64,000 bases of DNA. It comes from Planctomycetota bacterium. Its GTDB lineage: Bacteria; Planctomycetota; UBA1135; GCA-002686595. The notes beneath the pieces were generated by a model. The model was not told where the DNA came from and did not search any database. It saw only the letters and a program-made list of their open reading frames with translations. A program made the position numbers and the translations under genes. Position 1 is the first letter of the stretch. Each line of letters opens with the position of its first letter. Below, one piece after another: positions 54,443 through 64,000 of the stretch. Location of the stretch: contig JAEUIA010000022.1 in the NCBI GenBank assembly GCA_016795245.1, positions 1-64,000 of the forward strand, given 5' to 3'.

Positions 54443-54527
54443 TGGTGAGGAAGGGGGGACTCGAACCCCCACGCCCGAAGGCTTCGGATTTTAAGTCCGA
54501 TGCGTCTGCCGATTTCGCCACTTCCTC
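54443..54527 (-). tRNA. tRNA-Leu (TAA anticodon)
   Basis: An 85-nt tRNA on the minus strand. Acceptor stem GAGGAAG/CTTCCTC, anticodon stem TCGGA/TCCGA around CT-TAA-AA, a long variable arm (GCC-TTCG-GGC) as expected for Leu, T arm GGGGG-TTCGAGT-CCCCC, and an encoded CCA end. It decodes UUA and UUG. Confidence 0.95.
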
Positions 54528-54613: not shown

Positions 54614-54687
54614 GGCGGCATAGCCAAGTGGTAAGGCAGTGGATTGCAAATCCACCATCCCCGGTTCAAATCCGGGTGCCGCCTCCA
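54614..54687 (+). tRNA. tRNA-Cys (GCA anticodon)
   Basis: A 74-nt tRNA. Acceptor stem GGCGGCA/TGCCGCC, anticodon stem GTGGA/TCCAC around TT-GCA-AA, T arm CCCGG-TTCAAAT-CCGGG, discriminator U and an encoded CCA end. Transcribed divergently from the tRNA-Leu, 86 bp away. Confidence 0.95.
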
Positions 54688-54774: not shown

Positions 54775-55539
54775 GTGGTGCTCCTCCTCCGCATGGCTGC
54801 GATCCTCGCGTCTGCACTGTTCGCGGCGCTCGCCTCCTGCTCGAGCACGGGACAGCACTTCGAGCGCGAACACTGGCGCGGCGGGTTCGATCAGTTCTCG
54901 CGCGCTCCCTACCAGTGGGTGCCGACTGCGGTAGCGGTCGCGGCCACGCCGATCGCGATCATGATCGACCGTTCGACGTCGGCCGAGAGCGTCGAGGATC
55001 ACGTGTTCAACAGCAACACGAAGTACGGCGACGAACTCGCGCTCGGAATCGGATTCGCCCCGGTCGTGCTCGGCGGTGCGCTGGGGCTCGCGACGGGCGA
55101 CGCACGCGTGTTCCACGTCGCGACCGAGGCCACGGCGCTCACGGCGGCCCAGACTCAGCTCTTGAAGATCGCCGTGAACCGCAAACGGCCCGACGGTTCA
55201 GCGCAGGATTCGTTTCCTTCGGGTCACACGTCGTTCACCTTTTGCGGCGCGACGCTGCTCGCGCGTTGGTACGCGGAAGAGAACGACGGCAGCCCACTCG
55301 GCTACCTGCTGTATTTGCCGGCGTCCTACGTCGGCATCTCACGCCTCGAGGGCGACCGCCATTTCCTTTCGGACATCACGTTCGGCGCTGCGCTGGGGAT
55401 GTTCACGGCGCACATGGTCTGGAACGCGCACTTCGGCGACGACGCGCACGGCGGCCTGTTCGGCCGCGACGTCGCCGCGCAGCTCTTGCCTGTGGTCGAC
55501 GAAGACCGCGTCGGTCTGGCCTTGTCGATCTCGTTCTGA
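54775..55539 (+). CDS. PAP2-family lipoprotein phosphatase (first of tandem pair)
   Basis: A 254-residue protein. The N terminus has a lipoprotein signal (AALFAALASC-type, lipobox LASC), then a PAP2 domain with all three motifs: KIAVNRKRP (KxxxxxxRP), SFPSGHTS (PSGH) and SRLEGDRHFLSD (SRxxxxxHxxxD). Family members dephosphorylate lipid or isoprenyl phosphates. The lipobox is unusual, as most PAP2 enzymes are polytopic membrane proteins. Only two hydrophobic segments follow, so it may face the periplasm. GTG 54775 (or 54778) is used; an ATG at 54793 would remove the charged residue of the signal. The next gene is a paralogue. Confidence 0.83.
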   Translation: MVLLLRMAAILASALFAALASCSSTGQHFEREHWRGGFDQFSRAPYQWVPTAVAVAATPIAIMIDRSTSAESVEDHVFNSNTKYGDELALGIGFAPVVLGGALGLATGDARVFHVATEATALTAAQTQLLKIAVNRKRPDGSAQDSFPSGHTSFTFCGATLLARWYAEENDGSPLGYLLYLPASYVGISRLEGDRHFLSDITFGAALGMFTAHMVWNAHFGDDAHGGLFGRDVAAQLLPVVDEDRVGLALSISF

Positions 55540-55618: not shown

Positions 55619-56380
55619 ATGATGCGCGTGCGAGTTGGGGTACTGCTCATCGCAGCGTCGTCGGCGCTCTGCGGAGCGTGTGCAACTTCCCACAAGCATC
55701 TCGACTCGAGGCCGTGGCGCGAGAGCTTCGCTCAGTTCTCGAAAGCGCCGGTTCAGTGGGTACCCACCGCCGTCGCGCTCGCGGCTACTCCGATCCTCGC
55801 CGGCGTGGACCAGTCGCTCTCGATCAGCAGCGTCGAAGAGAAGGTGTTCAACACCAAGGCGCGCTACGGCGACGAGTGGTCCATGGGGTTGGGGCTGGCG
55901 CCGATCGCGATCGGCGCTGCGGTTGGACTGACGAGCGGTGATTCGCGCTTCTTCGAAGTCGCGACCGAAGCCACGCTGTTGACTGCGGCCCAGACGCAGA
56001 TCCTGAAGCTCGCCGTCAATCGGCAACGCCCCGACCGCGGCGGCGAAGATTCTTTTCCATCGGGGCACACCTCGTTTGCGTTCGGCGGCGCGACGCTGCT
56101 CGCGCGCTGGTGGGCCTACGAACACGAAGGCGATTCGCTCGGCTACCTCCTGTACGTTCCCGCGGCCTATGTCGGCGTCACGCGGTTGGAGGGCGAGCGC
56201 CACTTTCTGTCCGACATCACGTTCGGCGCTGCGTTGGGCATCTTCACCGCGCACATGGTGTGGAATGCACACTTCGGCGACGACGAGCACCCGGGACTCT
56301 TCGGGCGACACGTCGATGCGCGCATCGTGCCCGTCGTGAGCGAGGAGGGGGTTGGGATCGGGCTGTCGATCTCGTTCTGA
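55619..56380 (+). CDS. PAP2-family lipoprotein phosphatase (second of tandem pair)
   Basis: A 253-residue paralogue of the upstream protein, aligning along its whole length, with lipobox LCGAC. The three PAP2 motifs are KLAVNRQRP, SFPSGHTS and TRLEGERHFLSD (Thr replaces the usual Ser in the third). The 'HFLSDITFGAALG.FTAHMVWNAHFGDD' C-terminal part is nearly identical in the two genes. It probably arose by tandem duplication. Likely periplasmic or outer-membrane anchored. Substrate unknown. Confidence 0.83.
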   Translation: MMRVRVGVLLIAASSALCGACATSHKHLDSRPWRESFAQFSKAPVQWVPTAVALAATPILAGVDQSLSISSVEEKVFNTKARYGDEWSMGLGLAPIAIGAAVGLTSGDSRFFEVATEATLLTAAQTQILKLAVNRQRPDRGGEDSFPSGHTSFAFGGATLLARWWAYEHEGDSLGYLLYVPAAYVGVTRLEGERHFLSDITFGAALGIFTAHMVWNAHFGDDEHPGLFGRHVDARIVPVVSEEGVGIGLSISF

Positions 56381-56418: not shown

Positions 56419-58422
56419 ATGTCCTCGCGCGCCAGGGAAGACGGCCGTACGCGCAAGCTGCTGATTGCTTGTGCGAGTGTTGTCGTCTTGATCCTGATCT
56501 TGGCGCTGCTCGAGACGCGCGAACGCCGCTTCGGTTGTGACCCGCTCGAACCGCTGTCCGCCGAAGTTCCGCCGGCGACGGTGCTGGAGTCGCCGGCAAG
56601 AGTGCAGCTCGATCCCGTGGTGCGAGATGAGGCGCCTCCAGTCACCACCAGCGGAGTCGCCGACAGCCGGGCGATCCGCCTGCGCGGACGTGTCGTCGAT
56701 GCGCGCACGAACGACGGGGTGCCGTTCGTAGACGTCTACATTCAAAGCGCTGCGTCTGAGTGCCGCGTGCGCGCCAACACCGACGGGACCTTCGAGAGCA
56801 CCTCCGCTGTTGCACCCGGGACCGTGCGGCTCGAGGTGTTCGACCGCGAAGTGTCTTACGGTTCCAAGAGCGTCGAATTCCAAGCCTCCGGCAGCTTGTC
56901 CTACGTCGTCCTGCCGATCGCGATCGGACCGACGGTGTACGTGAACTCCATCGGCTCAGGCCCCGTCAGGTCCGCGGACGCGTGGTCGCTGTGCATCGTC
57001 GAGTCGACCTATCCCTATGTCAGCGCCGGCGAGATCGCGGTGCGCGACGAAGTTCTCCAGATCGCAGACGGAGCCGATGTGCGCGAATGGACCAGCGTCC
57101 AACTGCGCTTCGAAGGTGCTTCCGTTTTTGCGCGCTGGCCCACGATCGAGTTCCCTGCAGACCGCAGGTTCTTCCCGCGCCTGTGCGCACGCTCGGATCG
57201 ACTGTCGCTGGTCGCACGCGCCGAACTGATGGACACGATCGGGACGCACCGCAATCCGGCCTTCGACACGACGCGAATTCAGGTCTTCGAAGGACGACTC
57301 TCGACCAATGACAGGCAACCGCTCAAGTCGGTGCGTGTCCTGGCGCGGCCGCGCACTCGCGAAGCAGCGTTCGGCGAACCACCCGATTGGGGCGAAGTGG
57401 AGAGCGGGGATGATTCCTTCACGATCGAAGTGCGCGGCAGCGACAGCTTCACTCTGGTCGCCTGGAGTGATGGATACCTGCCCTCCGTCCTTCAAAACCG
57501 TGTCAGCGCCAGCCGGCGGACGACGCTCAAAGACCGAACCCTGGTGCGCGTTCCCGGCGAGTCCGTCGGCTCGACCGTGGATGCGACGACACCCGGCGCC
57601 GAATACGCAGGCACGCAACAGTTCGTGCGCGCGCGCACACCCGAGAGCGGGAATATGTCCAGGGCGGAAGTCTACGAATGGCCCCGCGCCGTGCGCCGCG
57701 ATGGTCGCGGCGTCCCGCGCAGCTTCTACACAGTCGAACTCGTCGGCGTCGATCGCGTGCCGCTCTCGAGTGGTTGGCCCGTGGCGCAGATTCTGCCCGA
57801 TGCGTTGAAGCCCATTGCGGATTGGACTGCAGTGGCGACTGTCCCGCATCGCATCGAGTGGTTCGATCGCGACCAAGACCGAGCACGCGACGACTTCGTG
57901 ATCACGGCCGGTCCGTCCGGCTGCATGGTGACGACGAAAGCAGTCGGGGCTGCAACTGCGTGGGATCTGGTTCCGCGTTCGAACGTGCAGTTCACGGCCT
58001 GGCGCGCCGGCTGCGAGCCGGTCGCGATCAGCGGCAAGGACTTTCAGAAGCGCGACGGCGAGTGCGTCGCTTCGATTCACCCGCAACCCGGCTGGGGTGT
58101 GTCGCTCTCGTTCCGCGTCTTCGATACGACAGCTCAGCCCTGGTCACGGAAGGCCGGCGCCGTGAAGCCCGAAGCGCTCGATTCCACGCGCGACGGTTTC
58201 GATCTCGCGCGCGTGCTGGCCGCGCCGGCGCTGCCGGGTGTCGGAGTGCTGGCGAACGGATCGAGGCTGGGACAGAGCGATGCGGATGGGAACTTGCTCG
58301 TTCGCGCCCGAATCTGGCCGACGCAGATGTCTTTGCGCGCCAGGGGTTGGCGGCTGATGGAACTCGAGCGCATGCCGGGGCCCGGGGTGCGCTGGATCGC
58401 GTGGATGGAAAAGGAGCGCTGA
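56419..58422 (+). CDS. Membrane-anchored protein with carboxypeptidase regulatory-like domain
   Basis: A 667-residue protein. A basic N terminus precedes one transmembrane helix (about residues 14-33). Residues ~75-155 look like a carboxypeptidase regulatory-like (transthyretin-type) beta domain: 'RLRGRVVDARTNDGVPFVDV' and 'TDGTFESTSAVAPGTVRLEV'. The remaining ~500 residues are beta-rich with no family I recognise. TAGACT at 56404-56409 ends 9 nt before the ATG, so the transcript could be nearly leaderless. Function unknown; the protein probably projects into the periplasm. Confidence 0.7.
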   Translation: MSSRAREDGRTRKLLIACASVVVLILILALLETRERRFGCDPLEPLSAEVPPATVLESPARVQLDPVVRDEAPPVTTSGVADSRAIRLRGRVVDARTNDGVPFVDVYIQSAASECRVRANTDGTFESTSAVAPGTVRLEVFDREVSYGSKSVEFQASGSLSYVVLPIAIGPTVYVNSIGSGPVRSADAWSLCIVESTYPYVSAGEIAVRDEVLQIADGADVREWTSVQLRFEGASVFARWPTIEFPADRRFFPRLCARSDRLSLVARAELMDTIGTHRNPAFDTTRIQVFEGRLSTNDRQPLKSVRVLARPRTREAAFGEPPDWGEVESGDDSFTIEVRGSDSFTLVAWSDGYLPSVLQNRVSASRRTTLKDRTLVRVPGESVGSTVDATTPGAEYAGTQQFVRARTPESGNMSRAEVYEWPRAVRRDGRGVPRSFYTVELVGVDRVPLSSGWPVAQILPDALKPIADWTAVATVPHRIEWFDRDQDRARDDFVITAGPSGCMVTTKAVGAATAWDLVPRSNVQFTAWRAGCEPVAISGKDFQKRDGECVASIHPQPGWGVSLSFRVFDTTAQPWSRKAGAVKPEALDSTRDGFDLARVLAAPALPGVGVLANGSRLGQSDADGNLLVRARIWPTQMSLRARGWRLMELERMPGPGVRWIAWMEKER

Positions 58423-58450: not shown

Positions 58451-60871
58451 TCAGGGCAACTCTTGCATGAGCGCCAGCAGCGCGGCGCGATTCTCGAGAT
58501 TGTCGAGTCCGGCTGCGCGCAACGTGGCGAGCAGTGACCCCGAGGAGGCGGCCATCTGGGCCGCGCGCTGCAGGTAGATCGGATCGCGCGTGATGTCGTA
58601 CGCGTAGGCGAACGAACTCCAGCACTGGTACGAATCGCCGCCGTCCGCGAACCCGTTCGCAGGCGTCGCGCCGCAGAAGGGGACGTGTGTGTAGTCGGCG
58701 TCGCCCACGGCGAGTTTTGTCCAGGGTGCGTTGGCCGCGGCGTTCCAGCCCGGGGCCGTGACCATCGCGTTGAAGGACTTCGTGAGCACGGAATTGATCT
58801 TGGCCGTGCGCAGCGCGTCGTTGTCGCGCATCACGGTCTCGCGCAAACCGACGAGCATGTTCTCGGTGATGGCCTGTTCGATCGACTGGCGTGCGCGGTA
58901 CTGGCCCTGGAAGAGCTGTTCGTACACGTACGATTGAATGAATCCGCTGCACTGCGATTGACCGCGATCGACCAGGTCGACGACGCGCCTGAACCACGGT
59001 CGCACGCGATTGCGCCACTCCGGGTCGGCCATCGCAAAAGCGGCGATCACGCTGTCGAGCCCCCAGCTCTCCAGGCGTCCGAACGTGAACCCGATGCCGG
59101 GGTAGGCGGCGACATAGTGCTCGTCCGCGCCCATGCCAGTCGAAATGTAGTAGCCCCATTGCGAGTTCGGGAACTCGTTGTAGCTCAGGCGGAAGAGCGC
59201 AGCCGACATCATCAGCGAGTCCTTCGCCAGCGAGTCGTTGCCGATCCAAGCCAATGCCTTCGCCGGGGCGGTGTAGCGCACGAAGTGCTCGAAGTCGATC
59301 GGCTGGTAGCTCGCGAGCAGAGCCTCGTACGGCGGTTGCAGATTCTGCGCGATGACCTCGTCCACTTGAAAGGTCGGCGCGGTCGTGAATCCGAACGGAT
59401 CTGCGGCCCACAGGAGCGGCGTCAAGAAGCACCACACCGGAAGCCACTGTCCGCTCCAATCGACGACCGTCCATTGCAGGTAGTCGGTCGGCTCGCCGTC
59501 GTTGTTGTACAACGCGACCGGCTGGCGATCGGTGTACATGCGATGCTCCATCGCCAACGCGCGCCAACCGGCATTCGTCCCGGCCGCGAGCGCGCGCAGT
59601 CCGTGGTACATCACGATTCCGTCGCCGCCGGCCATGCCGCCGTGCGCGACGCCGTAAGGGTTGCACCAACCCAACGCGCCGCCGAGGAGCGGATAGCCGG
59701 GCGCGATGCCGGTGCGCAGCGCCCAGGAGAGGTGGTCGGCGCGCGCTTGTTGCTCGGCGCGCAACTCGCTCAGCGGGACGTGCTGCAGGTCGGGAATGCG
59801 CCGATTCTGCGGGAAATAGCGCGCTGTATCCCTGTTCCACCACGAAAAGAGCTGTTCGCCCTCGGCGTTGCGTCCGTCGCGGGCGAAGGCGAGGTTCTGG
59901 TCGCGCACGTAGCCCACGGCCTGGCGGACGTCGGCGGGGCGATAGATGACGAGTCGCCGCAGCGTCTGCGCCTGCCTGTGCATGACGTGCAGCTTGCCGT
60001 TCGGGAGCGGCTTGATGATCCAATAGCGCTCGTGGTCACCGTTCGTTTCGGGCCCGTCCGTGAACGAATCCGGATCGGCATCGCGCACCCACCATCCGTG
60101 GGGCAGATCCAATTCGAGGCCGTCGAAGTACACCGTCCCGAGCGGATCGTCGTAACTGACCGTCTGCGACAGTCCGCTGTGGCCGTTGTGGATGCGCAGG
60201 TCGAGCTCGATCACCGGCACTGAATCGAATACGCGCACGTACGAGTGAATGCCGACGAAGTGCGGCAGGGTCGCATTGGGCGCGCCGTGCGGCGCGATCG
60301 GCATCATCGTCCCGTGCGTGCGGAATTCCTTGACGGCCGAGCCGTTGCGCAAGACCTTCGACGGCAGGTTCTCTCGCAGCGGATCCAGCATGTAGATGTT
60401 GCCGTAGACGTCGCGTGCCTTGAACAAGAGCGCACGATCCGTGTTCAGGAACTCCGTCACAGCCGGATGAATCGCAATCGGACTCGGCGCGTGCGGTGAG
60501 AACACCACGTCGTAGTTCATGACTCCGCCGAGCGGCAAGGTCGGCGGTCGCGCCACACGCGCCGCGATTTCGACGACGTCGGCGCCTTCGCTGTCGACGG
60601 CGTAGCGTGACACCAACTCGGTCTGCGTCGGCACGAGCGTTCCGTCCACGTCGCGAATGGCGAACGGGGAGAAGCCATCCGCGCGCGGAAACGTGCCACG
60701 CGGAATCGGAATGGTCGCCTGCAGGACGAACTCTGCGTCGGCAGGCGGAAACAACTCCACGCGCGCGACCGTTCGTCCTGGTACGAGGCTCGCACTGCCT
60801 GCCAACAGCGGGCCGAGGACTGCCAGGAAGGAAATCAAGGGTGGCGAAGATACGTCAAAAATCAGGAACAC
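58451..60871 (-). CDS. Large secreted protein, paralogue of the protein at 62155
   Basis: About 806 residues. No good ATG precedes the signal-like hydrophobic segment (ISFLAVLGPLLAGSAS); GTG at 60871 or TTG at 60838 are the in-frame options that do not run into the divergent glycosyltransferase. I use 60871, with low certainty. The body is a mixture of a beta-rich front half ('RIHNGHSGLSQTV', 'YDDPLGTVYFDGLELDLP') and a helical rear half. It shares islands with the 62155 protein: HRMYTDRQP, WAADPFG, APTFQV, GLRET. I recognise no named family. The rear half, with repeated helical segments and aromatic and acidic residues, could be a sugar-binding or hydrolytic toroid, but that is speculative. 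Confidence 0.72.
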   Translation of the reverse strand: MFLIFDVSSPPLISFLAVLGPLLAGSASLVPGRTVARVELFPPADAEFVLQATIPIPRGTFPRADGFSPFAIRDVDGTLVPTQTELVSRYAVDSEGADVVEIAARVARPPTLPLGGVMNYDVVFSPHAPSPIAIHPAVTEFLNTDRALLFKARDVYGNIYMLDPLRENLPSKVLRNGSAVKEFRTHGTMMPIAPHGAPNATLPHFVGIHSYVRVFDSVPVIELDLRIHNGHSGLSQTVSYDDPLGTVYFDGLELDLPHGWWVRDADPDSFTDGPETNGDHERYWIIKPLPNGKLHVMHRQAQTLRRLVIYRPADVRQAVGYVRDQNLAFARDGRNAEGEQLFSWWNRDTARYFPQNRRIPDLQHVPLSELRAEQQARADHLSWALRTGIAPGYPLLGGALGWCNPYGVAHGGMAGGDGIVMYHGLRALAAGTNAGWRALAMEHRMYTDRQPVALYNNDGEPTDYLQWTVVDWSGQWLPVWCFLTPLLWAADPFGFTTAPTFQVDEVIAQNLQPPYEALLASYQPIDFEHFVRYTAPAKALAWIGNDSLAKDSLMMSAALFRLSYNEFPNSQWGYYISTGMGADEHYVAAYPGIGFTFGRLESWGLDSVIAAFAMADPEWRNRVRPWFRRVVDLVDRGQSQCSGFIQSYVYEQLFQGQYRARQSIEQAITENMLVGLRETVMRDNDALRTAKINSVLTKSFNAMVTAPGWNAAANAPWTKLAVGDADYTHVPFCGATPANGFADGGDSYQCWSSFAYAYDITRDPIYLQRAAQMAASSGSLLATLRAAGLDNLENRAALLALMQELP

Positions 60872-60926
60872 GCAATCAGACGTCGCTCGCGGAGGCGCCG
60901 GGGATGGCACACTCCGGCACGCCCTG

Positions 60927-62150
60927 ATGACGAGCACCGGGACAATTCTGTTCGTGAGCGAGAAGTTCCCCTGGCCCGTCGACGACGGCGGCCAGGCCCG
61001 CACCTACCACGTCCTCAAAGAACTGGCCCGCGCGCGCGCCACCGCGCTCGTTGCGCATTCGCCCGGCGATCCGAGCGGAATCTCGCGCATTCAGGCGCTG
61101 GGCGTCGACGTGGCCTGCCGCGGAGCGCGTTCCAGTTCCTGGACCGCGCCGCTCTACGCCGCACTTTCGACGTTCACGCGTGCTCCGTACCCGATGCGCA
61201 AGAACCGTTCGCGGGCGCTCCTCACCGAAATTCGGCGGCGCATCGAGTCCGGTGGCGTGGGTGTCCTGCACCTGAATCACCTCGATTCGGCGCAATATGT
61301 CGAGGATCTGGGGGCTCTGCGCGAGCGCGTCTTGTGCGTATTCGACACGCACAATCTGCTCACGACGATGTACGAGCGCTTCCATGCGACGGCAAAGGGC
61401 GCGCTGAAGCGCGGCTTCCTCAGCTTGCAGTGGATGAAGATGGGCCGCTACGAGCGTGAGATCATGCGGCAGATGGATCTCGTGCTCGTGTGTTCGGAGG
61501 TCGAGCGCAAGCTGTTGCACACGTGGGGCCTCGAGCGCGTGCTCGTGGTCCCGAACGGCGTCGACCTGGATCACTACACGCCGATCGAGTGGCGGCGCAA
61601 GGCCGAGCGCGAACCGCCGCTCGTCGTGTTCACCGGTGCGATGGGTTATGCCCCAAATGCCGACGCCGTGAGTTGGTTCTTGGATGCCGTGCTCCCGCTC
61701 GTGCGCGCGGAAGTGGGGCACGTCCTGTTGCGCGTCGTCGGCAAGGATCCGCCTCCCTCACTCTCGGCGCGAGCGCAGAGAGGTGCGATCGAATTCACGG
61801 GTTATGTGGATGACGTCCGCCCGCACATGAACGAGGCGCGCGTGTTCGTGTGTCCGCTGCGCATCGGTGGTGGTACACGCCTCAAGATCCTCGACGCGAT
61901 GTCGCAGGAGATTCCGGTCGTTTCGACCACGGTGGGCGCCGAAGGCCTGGCCGTCACCGCTGACGAGAACATCGTTCTCGCGGATGACCCGCACGCGTTC
62001 GCCGCTGCCGTCGTAGCGCTCCTTCGTGACGAGGCTCGCGCGCGCCGCATCGCAGCCGCGGGTTTGGAATTGGTGCGAGCGCGCTACGGCTGGACCGCTG
62101 TCACGCGACCCCTGATCGACGCGCTCGCACAGCCGCGCGCCGACCGTTGA
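60927..62150 (+). CDS. Glycosyltransferase, GT4-like
   Basis: A 407-residue GT-B fold enzyme. The N-terminal acceptor domain starts with ILFVSEKFPWPVDDGGQART, which is typical of this branch. The C-terminal donor domain contains VVPNGVDLDHYTP, 'VFTGAMGYAPNADAVSWF' and the nucleotide-sugar motif FVCPLRIGGGTRLKILDAMS followed by GAEGLAVT. It would transfer a sugar from a nucleotide donor onto a polysaccharide or protein. It lies between two genes for paralogous large secreted proteins on the opposite strand and is convergent with the second (4 bp between the stops). The acceptor is not deducible. Confidence 0.87.
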   Translation: MTSTGTILFVSEKFPWPVDDGGQARTYHVLKELARARATALVAHSPGDPSGISRIQALGVDVACRGARSSSWTAPLYAALSTFTRAPYPMRKNRSRALLTEIRRRIESGGVGVLHLNHLDSAQYVEDLGALRERVLCVFDTHNLLTTMYERFHATAKGALKRGFLSLQWMKMGRYEREIMRQMDLVLVCSEVERKLLHTWGLERVLVVPNGVDLDHYTPIEWRRKAEREPPLVVFTGAMGYAPNADAVSWFLDAVLPLVRAEVGHVLLRVVGKDPPPSLSARAQRGAIEFTGYVDDVRPHMNEARVFVCPLRIGGGTRLKILDAMSQEIPVVSTTVGAEGLAVTADENIVLADDPHAFAAAVVALLRDEARARRIAAAGLELVRARYGWTAVTRPLIDALAQPRADR

Positions 62151-62154
62151 CGGC

Positions 62155-64000
62155 TCACGGAGCCTCTGTCGCCATGTTCTGGGCCAACGCCATCAGCGCG
62201 GCACGATTCTGCCAGTTGTAGAGCGGGTAGGCCTGTCCTCCGGTCACGAAGTCGGTAGTGCCCATCGCTTCGGCGGCCTTCGTGAGGAAGATCGGATCGT
62301 GCGTCAGTTCCCAGCCGTACGCGAACGACGACCAGATCTGGTAGTGATCCGGAATGCCGTAGTTGCCGTCGGAGGGAATCCACGAGCAGTAAGGCGCTTG
62401 CGCCATGTCGAAGGGGCCGACCGCGATCATCGCCCACGGACCGTGGTGCGTCGTGCTCCACACGAGCGGCGAAACCATCGAGTACAACTCGCGACGCAAG
62501 ATGTTGTCGAGCAGGACCGTGCGCGCCGGGTCGCGTCCCAGGAATGCCGTTTCGCGCAAGCCCACGAGTGAATTCTCTACGATCGCGGCTTCGATCGATT
62601 GCCGACAGCGGTACTTCGCTCCGAACACATTGTAGAGCGGCACGGAGTGAATCACGTTCGAGCAACTCGTCTGGCCCTTCTCGAGCACGCCCAGGATCGC
62701 CTCCAACCACGGCAATTGGCGCGCACGCCAGGCATCGTCACCGGTGGAATAGGCCACCAATGCCACGTCCAGCCCCCAACCTTCACTGCGCCCGAAAGGG
62801 ATGCCGTTGTTCGGGTGGGCGGTGGTGTAGTTCTTCACGGCCAACAGACCCGTAGGGATGATCCCGCCCCAGATGTCCTGCGGCAACATCGTGTAGCTGA
62901 AGCGGAAACCTTCGGCTTGGGCACGCAGGTCTTCCTTGGCCAGCGCATCGTTGCCCAGCCACAGCAGGGTCTTGGCCGAGCGCGTGTATCGGATCAAGTG
63001 CTGTGTGTCGATCGCCTGAAACGACGCGAGTTGATCTTCGTACCAGGGCTTGCGCCCCGAAGCCGCAACCGCTTCGACCTGGAAGGTCGGTGCCTGGCCG
63101 TAACCGAACGGGTCGGCGGCCCAGAACATCGGTTCGTTGTACCACCAGATCGGCATGGTATCGCCGCTCGGTGTCGCGACGACCCACTGGTGCTCCTGCG
63201 TGTGCGTGCCGTCGCGATTGAAGAGCACGTTGGGCTGGCGGTCCGTGTACATGCGGTGCGTGATCTCGCTCAGCCGATACCCGTCACGCGAAGCGCTCCA
63301 AGCGACGTCGACGCCGTCGTAGAGGTAGATCTCGCTGCCGCTGACCATGCCGCCCGCGCTCGTGCCCCAGGGATGAGCCCAACCCATGTTGGCGTTCTCG
63401 ACCGGAAACTCGCCGACTGAGCCCGTCGCGATCTGATCGCGCATAGTCGCCATGCGGCCGCTCAAGTCGCCGCGCACCTGAGTTTCGTCCGCCGGCGCGA
63501 GCGAAGGCAAGACGTGACGTTGGCTGAACCAGCGGCCCGTGTTCTTGTTCCACCAGGAGAACCACTCGCGTCCGTCCGCGTTGATACCTGAGCGCGAGAA
63601 TGCCAGTCCTTCCTGCATGACCGCCGCGCTCGCTTCGGCCTCGCTGCCTTCACGGCACAGTGCGAATCGCCGATGGAATTGCGCCATGCGCGGCAGCATG
63701 TGCAACGAACCGACACCGCTGCCGTCGATGCGGCGCACGATCGGATAGACGCGCATGCCGGCCTCGTCGTAAGGCGTGCCCAGGTAGGGGTCCTGCAGCG
63801 ACGAGATGAGGGTCCAACCCATCGGAACGACGAGTTCCAGGCTCTCGAAGTACACCTTTCCGAGCGGATCGTCGTCGGTGGTCGTGGCGTCGAGACCGCT
63901 GAATGCGTTGTGCACGCGCAAGTCCAGCGACACGAAGTCCTCGCTCGCGTAGGTCGTCGCGTAAGCGTGCACACCGAGATGGTGCTTGAGCGTGCCTTGC
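62155..64000 (-). CDS. Large secreted protein paralogous to 58451 (partial, runs off edge)
   Basis: The C-terminal ~614 residues of a larger gene whose 5' end is beyond the window; the frame is open to 64000. It is homologous to the 58451 protein over its visible length: QGTLKHHLGVHAYA and DDPLGKVYFESLELVVP match the front half, and HRMYTDRQP, FWAADPFGYGQAPTFQV, RYTRSAKTLLWLGNDALAK and GRSEGWGLD match the rear half. Similarity is patchy rather than near-identical, so the duplication is old. Its N terminus and secretion signal are not visible here. Confidence 0.7.
   Translation of the reverse strand, partial: QGTLKHHLGVHAYATTYASEDFVSLDLRVHNAFSGLDATTTDDDPLGKVYFESLELVVPMGWTLISSLQDPYLGTPYDEAGMRVYPIVRRIDGSGVGSLHMLPRMAQFHRRFALCREGSEAEASAAVMQEGLAFSRSGINADGREWFSWWNKNTGRWFSQRHVLPSLAPADETQVRGDLSGRMATMRDQIATGSVGEFPVENANMGWAHPWGTSAGGMVSGSEIYLYDGVDVAWSASRDGYRLSEITHRMYTDRQPNVLFNRDGTHTQEHQWVVATPSGDTMPIWWYNEPMFWAADPFGYGQAPTFQVEAVAASGRKPWYEDQLASFQAIDTQHLIRYTRSAKTLLWLGNDALAKEDLRAQAEGFRFSYTMLPQDIWGGIIPTGLLAVKNYTTAHPNNGIPFGRSEGWGLDVALVAYSTGDDAWRARQLPWLEAILGVLEKGQTSCSNVIHSVPLYNVFGAKYRCRQSIEAAIVENSLVGLRETAFLGRDPARTVLLDNILRRELYSMVSPLVWSTTHHGPWAMIAVGPFDMAQAPYCSWIPSDGNYGIPDHYQIWSSFAYGWELTHDPIFLTKAAEAMGTTDFVTGGQAYPLYNWQNRAALMALAQNMATEAP

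Follow-up and report, generated by a model that had tools for sequence, protein, structure and literature searches.

What do two large, mutually related proteins do on either side of a glycosyltransferase gene, and do the three genes form a functional unit? This question is raised by the end of the window (the whole 64,000-nucleotide stretch of planctomycete DNA analyzed here), where the sequence-only reading had noted two large same-strand proteins that share islands of sequence, with a glycosyltransferase between them on the opposite strand. That layout was borne out, coordinates and strands included:

58451–60871, minus strand: gene A (orthologue of tandem-2), coding for an apparently exported, PL26-like three-domain protein; reading frame open to 61003, likely GTG start at 60871
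59857–60790, minus strand: N-terminal and central beta-sandwich region of A (model residues 1–311), with a PcRGLX_1st-like block, PRGTF..FAIRDVDGTLVPTQTELVSRY
58454–59857, minus strand: predicted C-terminal (alpha/alpha) toroid domain of A, which holds most of the invariant residues (R493, H573, R576, N589, D590, R643, W647, R664)
60927–62150, plus strand: GT4 glycosyltransferase, TIGR03087 (stp1)-like but below the cut-off (Pfam PF13692, 1.4e-30)
62155–64000, minus strand: gene B (orthologue of tandem-1), the C-terminal 614 aa that fall within the window; lipoprotein signal

A and B are identical at 241 of 601 residues (40%, E 2e-159, 4 gaps; the part of B within the window was compared), so the islands common to them are not due to chance and, as judged by alignment, the two are real paralogues. 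A third, more distant paralogue is encoded elsewhere in the same genome (C121:29375–31564, 34% identical to A). The gene A reading frame spans 58451–61003 (minus strand, 850 aa), and its likely GTG start at 60871 is followed by an N-terminal stretch resembling an export signal; gene B extends beyond the window edge and in full occupies 62155–64725 (minus strand) of the same contig (C22), encoding 856 aa with an N-terminal lipobox (AALSGC). B reads as a lipoprotein, and A is apparently Sec-exported. Among 75 family members, 41 have a strict lipobox and many others carry Sec-type signals; pairs of the window type combine one lipoprotein with one secreted copy (signals read from sequence). The glycosyltransferase gene diverges from A, about 55 nt away, and converges on B, 5 nt away. 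Adjoining gene A is another large open reading frame without a named family (56419–58422, plus strand), with a weak CarboxypepD_reg-like domain near the N-terminus; upstream of the A, glycosyltransferase and B genes lie two PAP2-superfamily phosphatase genes, a tandem duplicate (54775–55539 and 55619–56380, plus strand), as well as tRNA-Leu(TAA) (54443–54527, minus strand) and tRNA-Cys(GCA) (54614–54687, plus strand), near each other on opposite strands.

Searches of Pfam, NCBIfam and PDB sequences with A, B and a 15-member profile yielded nothing usable, in agreement with the earlier reading, which had recognized no named family for the large proteins. Structure prediction was more informative. 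The AlphaFold2 model of A, built from the family alignment (pLDDT 95, pTM 0.95), contains both folds that had been put forward as candidates, beta-sandwich domains followed by an (alpha/alpha) toroid, in the order found in PcRGLX of polysaccharide lyase family PL26 (PDB 5XQ3, 5XQG, 5XQJ and 5XQO; Pfam PcRGLX_1st and _3rd; YetA-like), an exo-rhamnogalacturonan lyase from Penicillium that cleaves plant pectin. PcRGLX also supplied the best PDB entries in a Foldseek search with this model (E 2.9e-7), and in a VIA comparison the match (Z 14.5, 566 residues aligned, rmsd 4.3, 11% identity) spans the whole chain, model residues 1–779 against residues 23–923, with the next entry at Z 9.3. The toroid of A taken alone resembles the GH88/GH105 unsaturated uronyl hydrolases, AGE epimerases and GH76 mannanases about equally (Z 13–15, a level usual for helical toroids); these share the (alpha/alpha) toroid, but the likeness is limited to this C-terminal domain and no sequence match to them was found. 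PL26 is absent among the matches listed for the toroid alone, which was not counted against the relation. The fold of A is also strongly matched by the model of an unnamed 738-aa viral protein (BFVD A0A516M318, E 2.5e-13), which suggests a virus-encoded relative.

Comparison of profiles points in the same direction. The hhalign score of the A/B family profile against PL26-like proteins collected from other Planctomycetota was 57.8 (default local alignment spanning just 58 columns), whereas 40 column shuffles reached 24.5 at most and nine unrelated families 17–24, a margin that supports a distant homology to PL26 beyond chance; against five canonical-type PL26 sequences alone, the match was weak (Prob 4%). 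Resemblances to PL26 further include an N-terminal block of the P(x)G..Q..sRY type and a carbohydrate context outside the cell. The differences are nevertheless substantial. None of 15 family members tested matched a PcRGLX Pfam model; no PF19501 match turned up in any of the 37 family genomes searched, and matches to PF21346 were limited to 3 genomes, from another bacterial family of the class. The toroid block that the alignment shows to be conserved in PcRGLX and its close bacterial homologues, RRWYGF.DYGD...GGYAWDNSEL, is missing as well: neither DYGD nor DNSE occurs in any of 70 family members, and both strings are also absent from divergent PL26-like proteins. Moreover, the A/B family is nearly confined to one planctomycete family, and its tandem pairs often adjoin box genes. 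Membership in PL26 proper was rejected because the PcRGLX Pfam models and the DYGD/DNSE blocks are absent despite the fold match; instead, the alignments and the predicted model indicate that the A/B family is a distant relative with PL26 architecture, that is, a new PL26-like family.

Structural likeness to PL26 is no proof of catalysis, and A and B could instead be binding proteins. On such a reading they would be non-catalytic surface or adhesion proteins (glycan-binding or matrix) that reuse a carbohydrate-enzyme fold and diversify quickly under pressure from phages or grazers. Lipoprotein anchoring, tandem duplication and loss of the PL26 signature blocks would fit, as would the rate of evolution: in the same box-linked genomes, median identity is 38% for the A/B family vs 73% for BoxB, so the family evolves fast, as exposed proteins often do. 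However, many polar and tryptophan residues (R, H, N, D, W) in the toroid are invariant across 70 divergent members, with the look of a conserved active site, and a non-catalytic role accordingly seems to us quite unlikely. Arguing against enzymes in general are the identity to PL26 of only about 11%, the toroid that alone does not single out PL26, the heterogeneous neighbors of copies that are not box-linked, and a commonest context, the box operon, that is not a sugar pathway. On balance, given the fold, the export signals, the invariant polar residues and the neighbors, we favor an anchored and a released enzyme: A and B are most likely surface-bound and released carbohydrate-active enzymes, whose activity and polysaccharide substrate we infer. 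They would make up a fast-evolving tandem pair of a new family, with beta-sandwich domains and then an (alpha/alpha) toroid as in the PL26 exo-rhamnogalacturonan lyases, B anchored at the surface and A released, each a lyase or otherwise a hydrolase. Together they may trim or depolymerize an extracellular polysaccharide that is acidic or decorated; in the lineage of the window, the pair sits in a polysaccharide-synthesis locus, with the GT4 gene a later insertion between the copies. This reading as a whole, tandem-duplicated exported enzymes of PL26 architecture acting on an extracellular polysaccharide and a glycosyltransferase inserted later, we hold to be probable rather than secure.

The distribution of the family is narrow. 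A search with a 70-row profile recovered it from 18 of 22 genomes in the planctomycete family to which the window belongs, and a sample of 370 other Planctomycetota yielded no member; in a whole-genome search, nearly all genomes of this bacterial family carried it, often in 2–4 copies, as did 1 genome among 24 others from the order. Members are present in the cultured strains Pla86, Pla163 and Poly30, the last of which is Saltatorellus ferox (PMC10896814). Tandem same-strand copies are common among the 72 loci with flanking sequence, most of them less than 400 nt apart. Single in-frame stop codons occur in a few copies (genomes G005, G010 and G030; locus L086), suggesting decaying paralogues or assembly errors. 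On sequence grounds, the A/B family dates back to the ancestor of one planctomycete family, within which it is usually located immediately downstream of boxC-boxB. A fold and a probable enzyme class can be proposed for a large orphan family, so far unnamed and confined to one planctomycete group, that nearly all members of a little-known planctomycete family possess, Pla86, Pla163 and Poly30 among them.

The tree of the family bears on whether the glycosyltransferase belongs with the pair, which would then be a conserved three-gene cassette for surface polysaccharide or protein glycosylation. A is the orthologue of tandem-2 and B of tandem-1 (support 100 and 99) in the pair of the two closest relatives, L039 and L040, where the two genes are directly adjacent with no glycosyltransferase between them. 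Beyond the presence of the glycosyltransferase between the copies in the window genome, an orthologue of it (65%) was found near a pair in only one other genome searched (G025, locus L044), downstream of the pair rather than between the copies; other glycosyltransferase homologues are unlinked to pairs. The arrangement with a glycosyltransferase between paralogues was not seen outside the window genome among the genomes searched. The three-gene arrangement, for which a neighborhood search had been advised, thus turned out not to be conserved; the cassette was rejected on the tree and the orthologue search, and we regard it as very improbable. Because the orthologues are directly adjacent in L039 and L040, the glycosyltransferase is most simply explained as a later insertion between the members of an older pair in the window lineage. 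The glycosyltransferase itself matches TIGR03087, the XrtA/PEP-CTERM (stp1) glycosyltransferase, over the full length, and a FemAB XrtA-associated protein is encoded in the same locus, but the score of 213.2 bits is below the curated cut-off of 316.65, and exosortase (TIGR02602) had no match in the window genome (92.55% complete), so that an XrtA/PEP-CTERM sorting system was rejected for this genome.

The surroundings of the pair nevertheless lend credit to part of the suggestion of a surface-polysaccharide or protein-glycosylation locus. Past the window, contig C22 encodes a NeuD/PglB-family acetyltransferase, a DegT aminotransferase, an Anp1-type glycosyltransferase, GMD, further glycosyltransferases and the FemAB protein, which scores above the XrtA-associated cut-off; the pair thus sits on the margin of a polysaccharide-type locus and has the predicted fold of carbohydrate-active enzymes. 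The three-gene unit did not survive, nothing specific was found for protein glycosylation, and a polysaccharide locus is not the general context, the box operon being the commonest one in the bacterial family. On the same contig beyond the window, a 370-aa open reading frame between the methyltransferase and GMD genes (L006:4756–5865, plus strand) looks transposase-like by eye, has no Pfam match and may have contributed to rearrangement of the locus. Sugar-related genes lie between the two copies elsewhere too: apart from GT4 in the window, these are PMT_2 (L072 and L089), a sulfatase (L052) and possibly a GDSL acylhydrolase (L061). GMD precedes the pair in L039 and L040, and a flippase and a sulfotransferase are beside it in L041–L043. 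A single polysaccharide context for all copies outside box loci was rejected, the Pfam tally of 114 neighboring reading frames being heterogeneous.

In the relatives, the commonest context, seen in 25 of 72 loci, is boxC-boxB of the aerobic benzoyl-CoA pathway followed by one or two family genes: boxB is directly upstream on the same strand, boxR is usually divergent where the contig reaches it, and gaps between the box-linked reading frames are 10–1173 nt, most of them below 370. Reference members score 753 (BoxC) and 756 bits (BoxB), over the equivalog cut-offs. These loci are spread across most parts of the family tree, including Pla86, Pla163 and Poly30, and the placement therefore looks old. 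The pair might then serve the box pathway: in one transcription unit, boxC-boxB-A-B, with boxR divergent, exported enzymes would detach aromatic acids, or oligosaccharides bearing aromatic groups, from a polymer and leave the released benzoyl groups to be catabolized by the box enzymes. BoxB and BoxC above cut-off with BoxR directly upstream in 25 loci, on the same strand, and the breadth of the tree covered speak for this; yet a P6C dehydrogenase and EttA are also conserved on the other side, so that synteny alone may suffice, and of the 61 genomes of the order, 57 have box genes, among them most from outside the bacterial family, where the A/B family is almost absent, and one from within it that lacks A/B members (G033). 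In the window genome, moreover, boxRCB is on another contig (C96), and in L039 and L040 the pair is likewise away from box. We therefore consider service to box unlikely, if still deserving attention. Its broader form, a family-wide secreted glycan-cleaving pair in one operon with aerobic benzoyl-CoA degradation, acting as depolymerases for aromatic-decorated polysaccharides whose benzoyl-type side groups feed box, seems distinctly doubtful. The adjacency may be retained synteny, as the conserved P6C dehydrogenase and EttA, the order-wide presence of box and the box genomes without the family would suggest, and any functional link to box is one that we infer.

No paper in the open library joined Planctomycet*, boxB and benzoyl-CoA or mentioned PcRGLX, and the papers searched held no link of box genes with exported PL-like genes; the adjacency thus appears to be undescribed. 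In cultured strains, it offers a testable connection of exported polysaccharide-lyase-like proteins to benzoyl-CoA catabolism. Some genomes in which no A/B family gene lies beside box (L119 on C96 of the window genome, L121 and L136) have a similar gene after boxB, the window-genome copy of which codes for an S1-domain RNA-binding protein.
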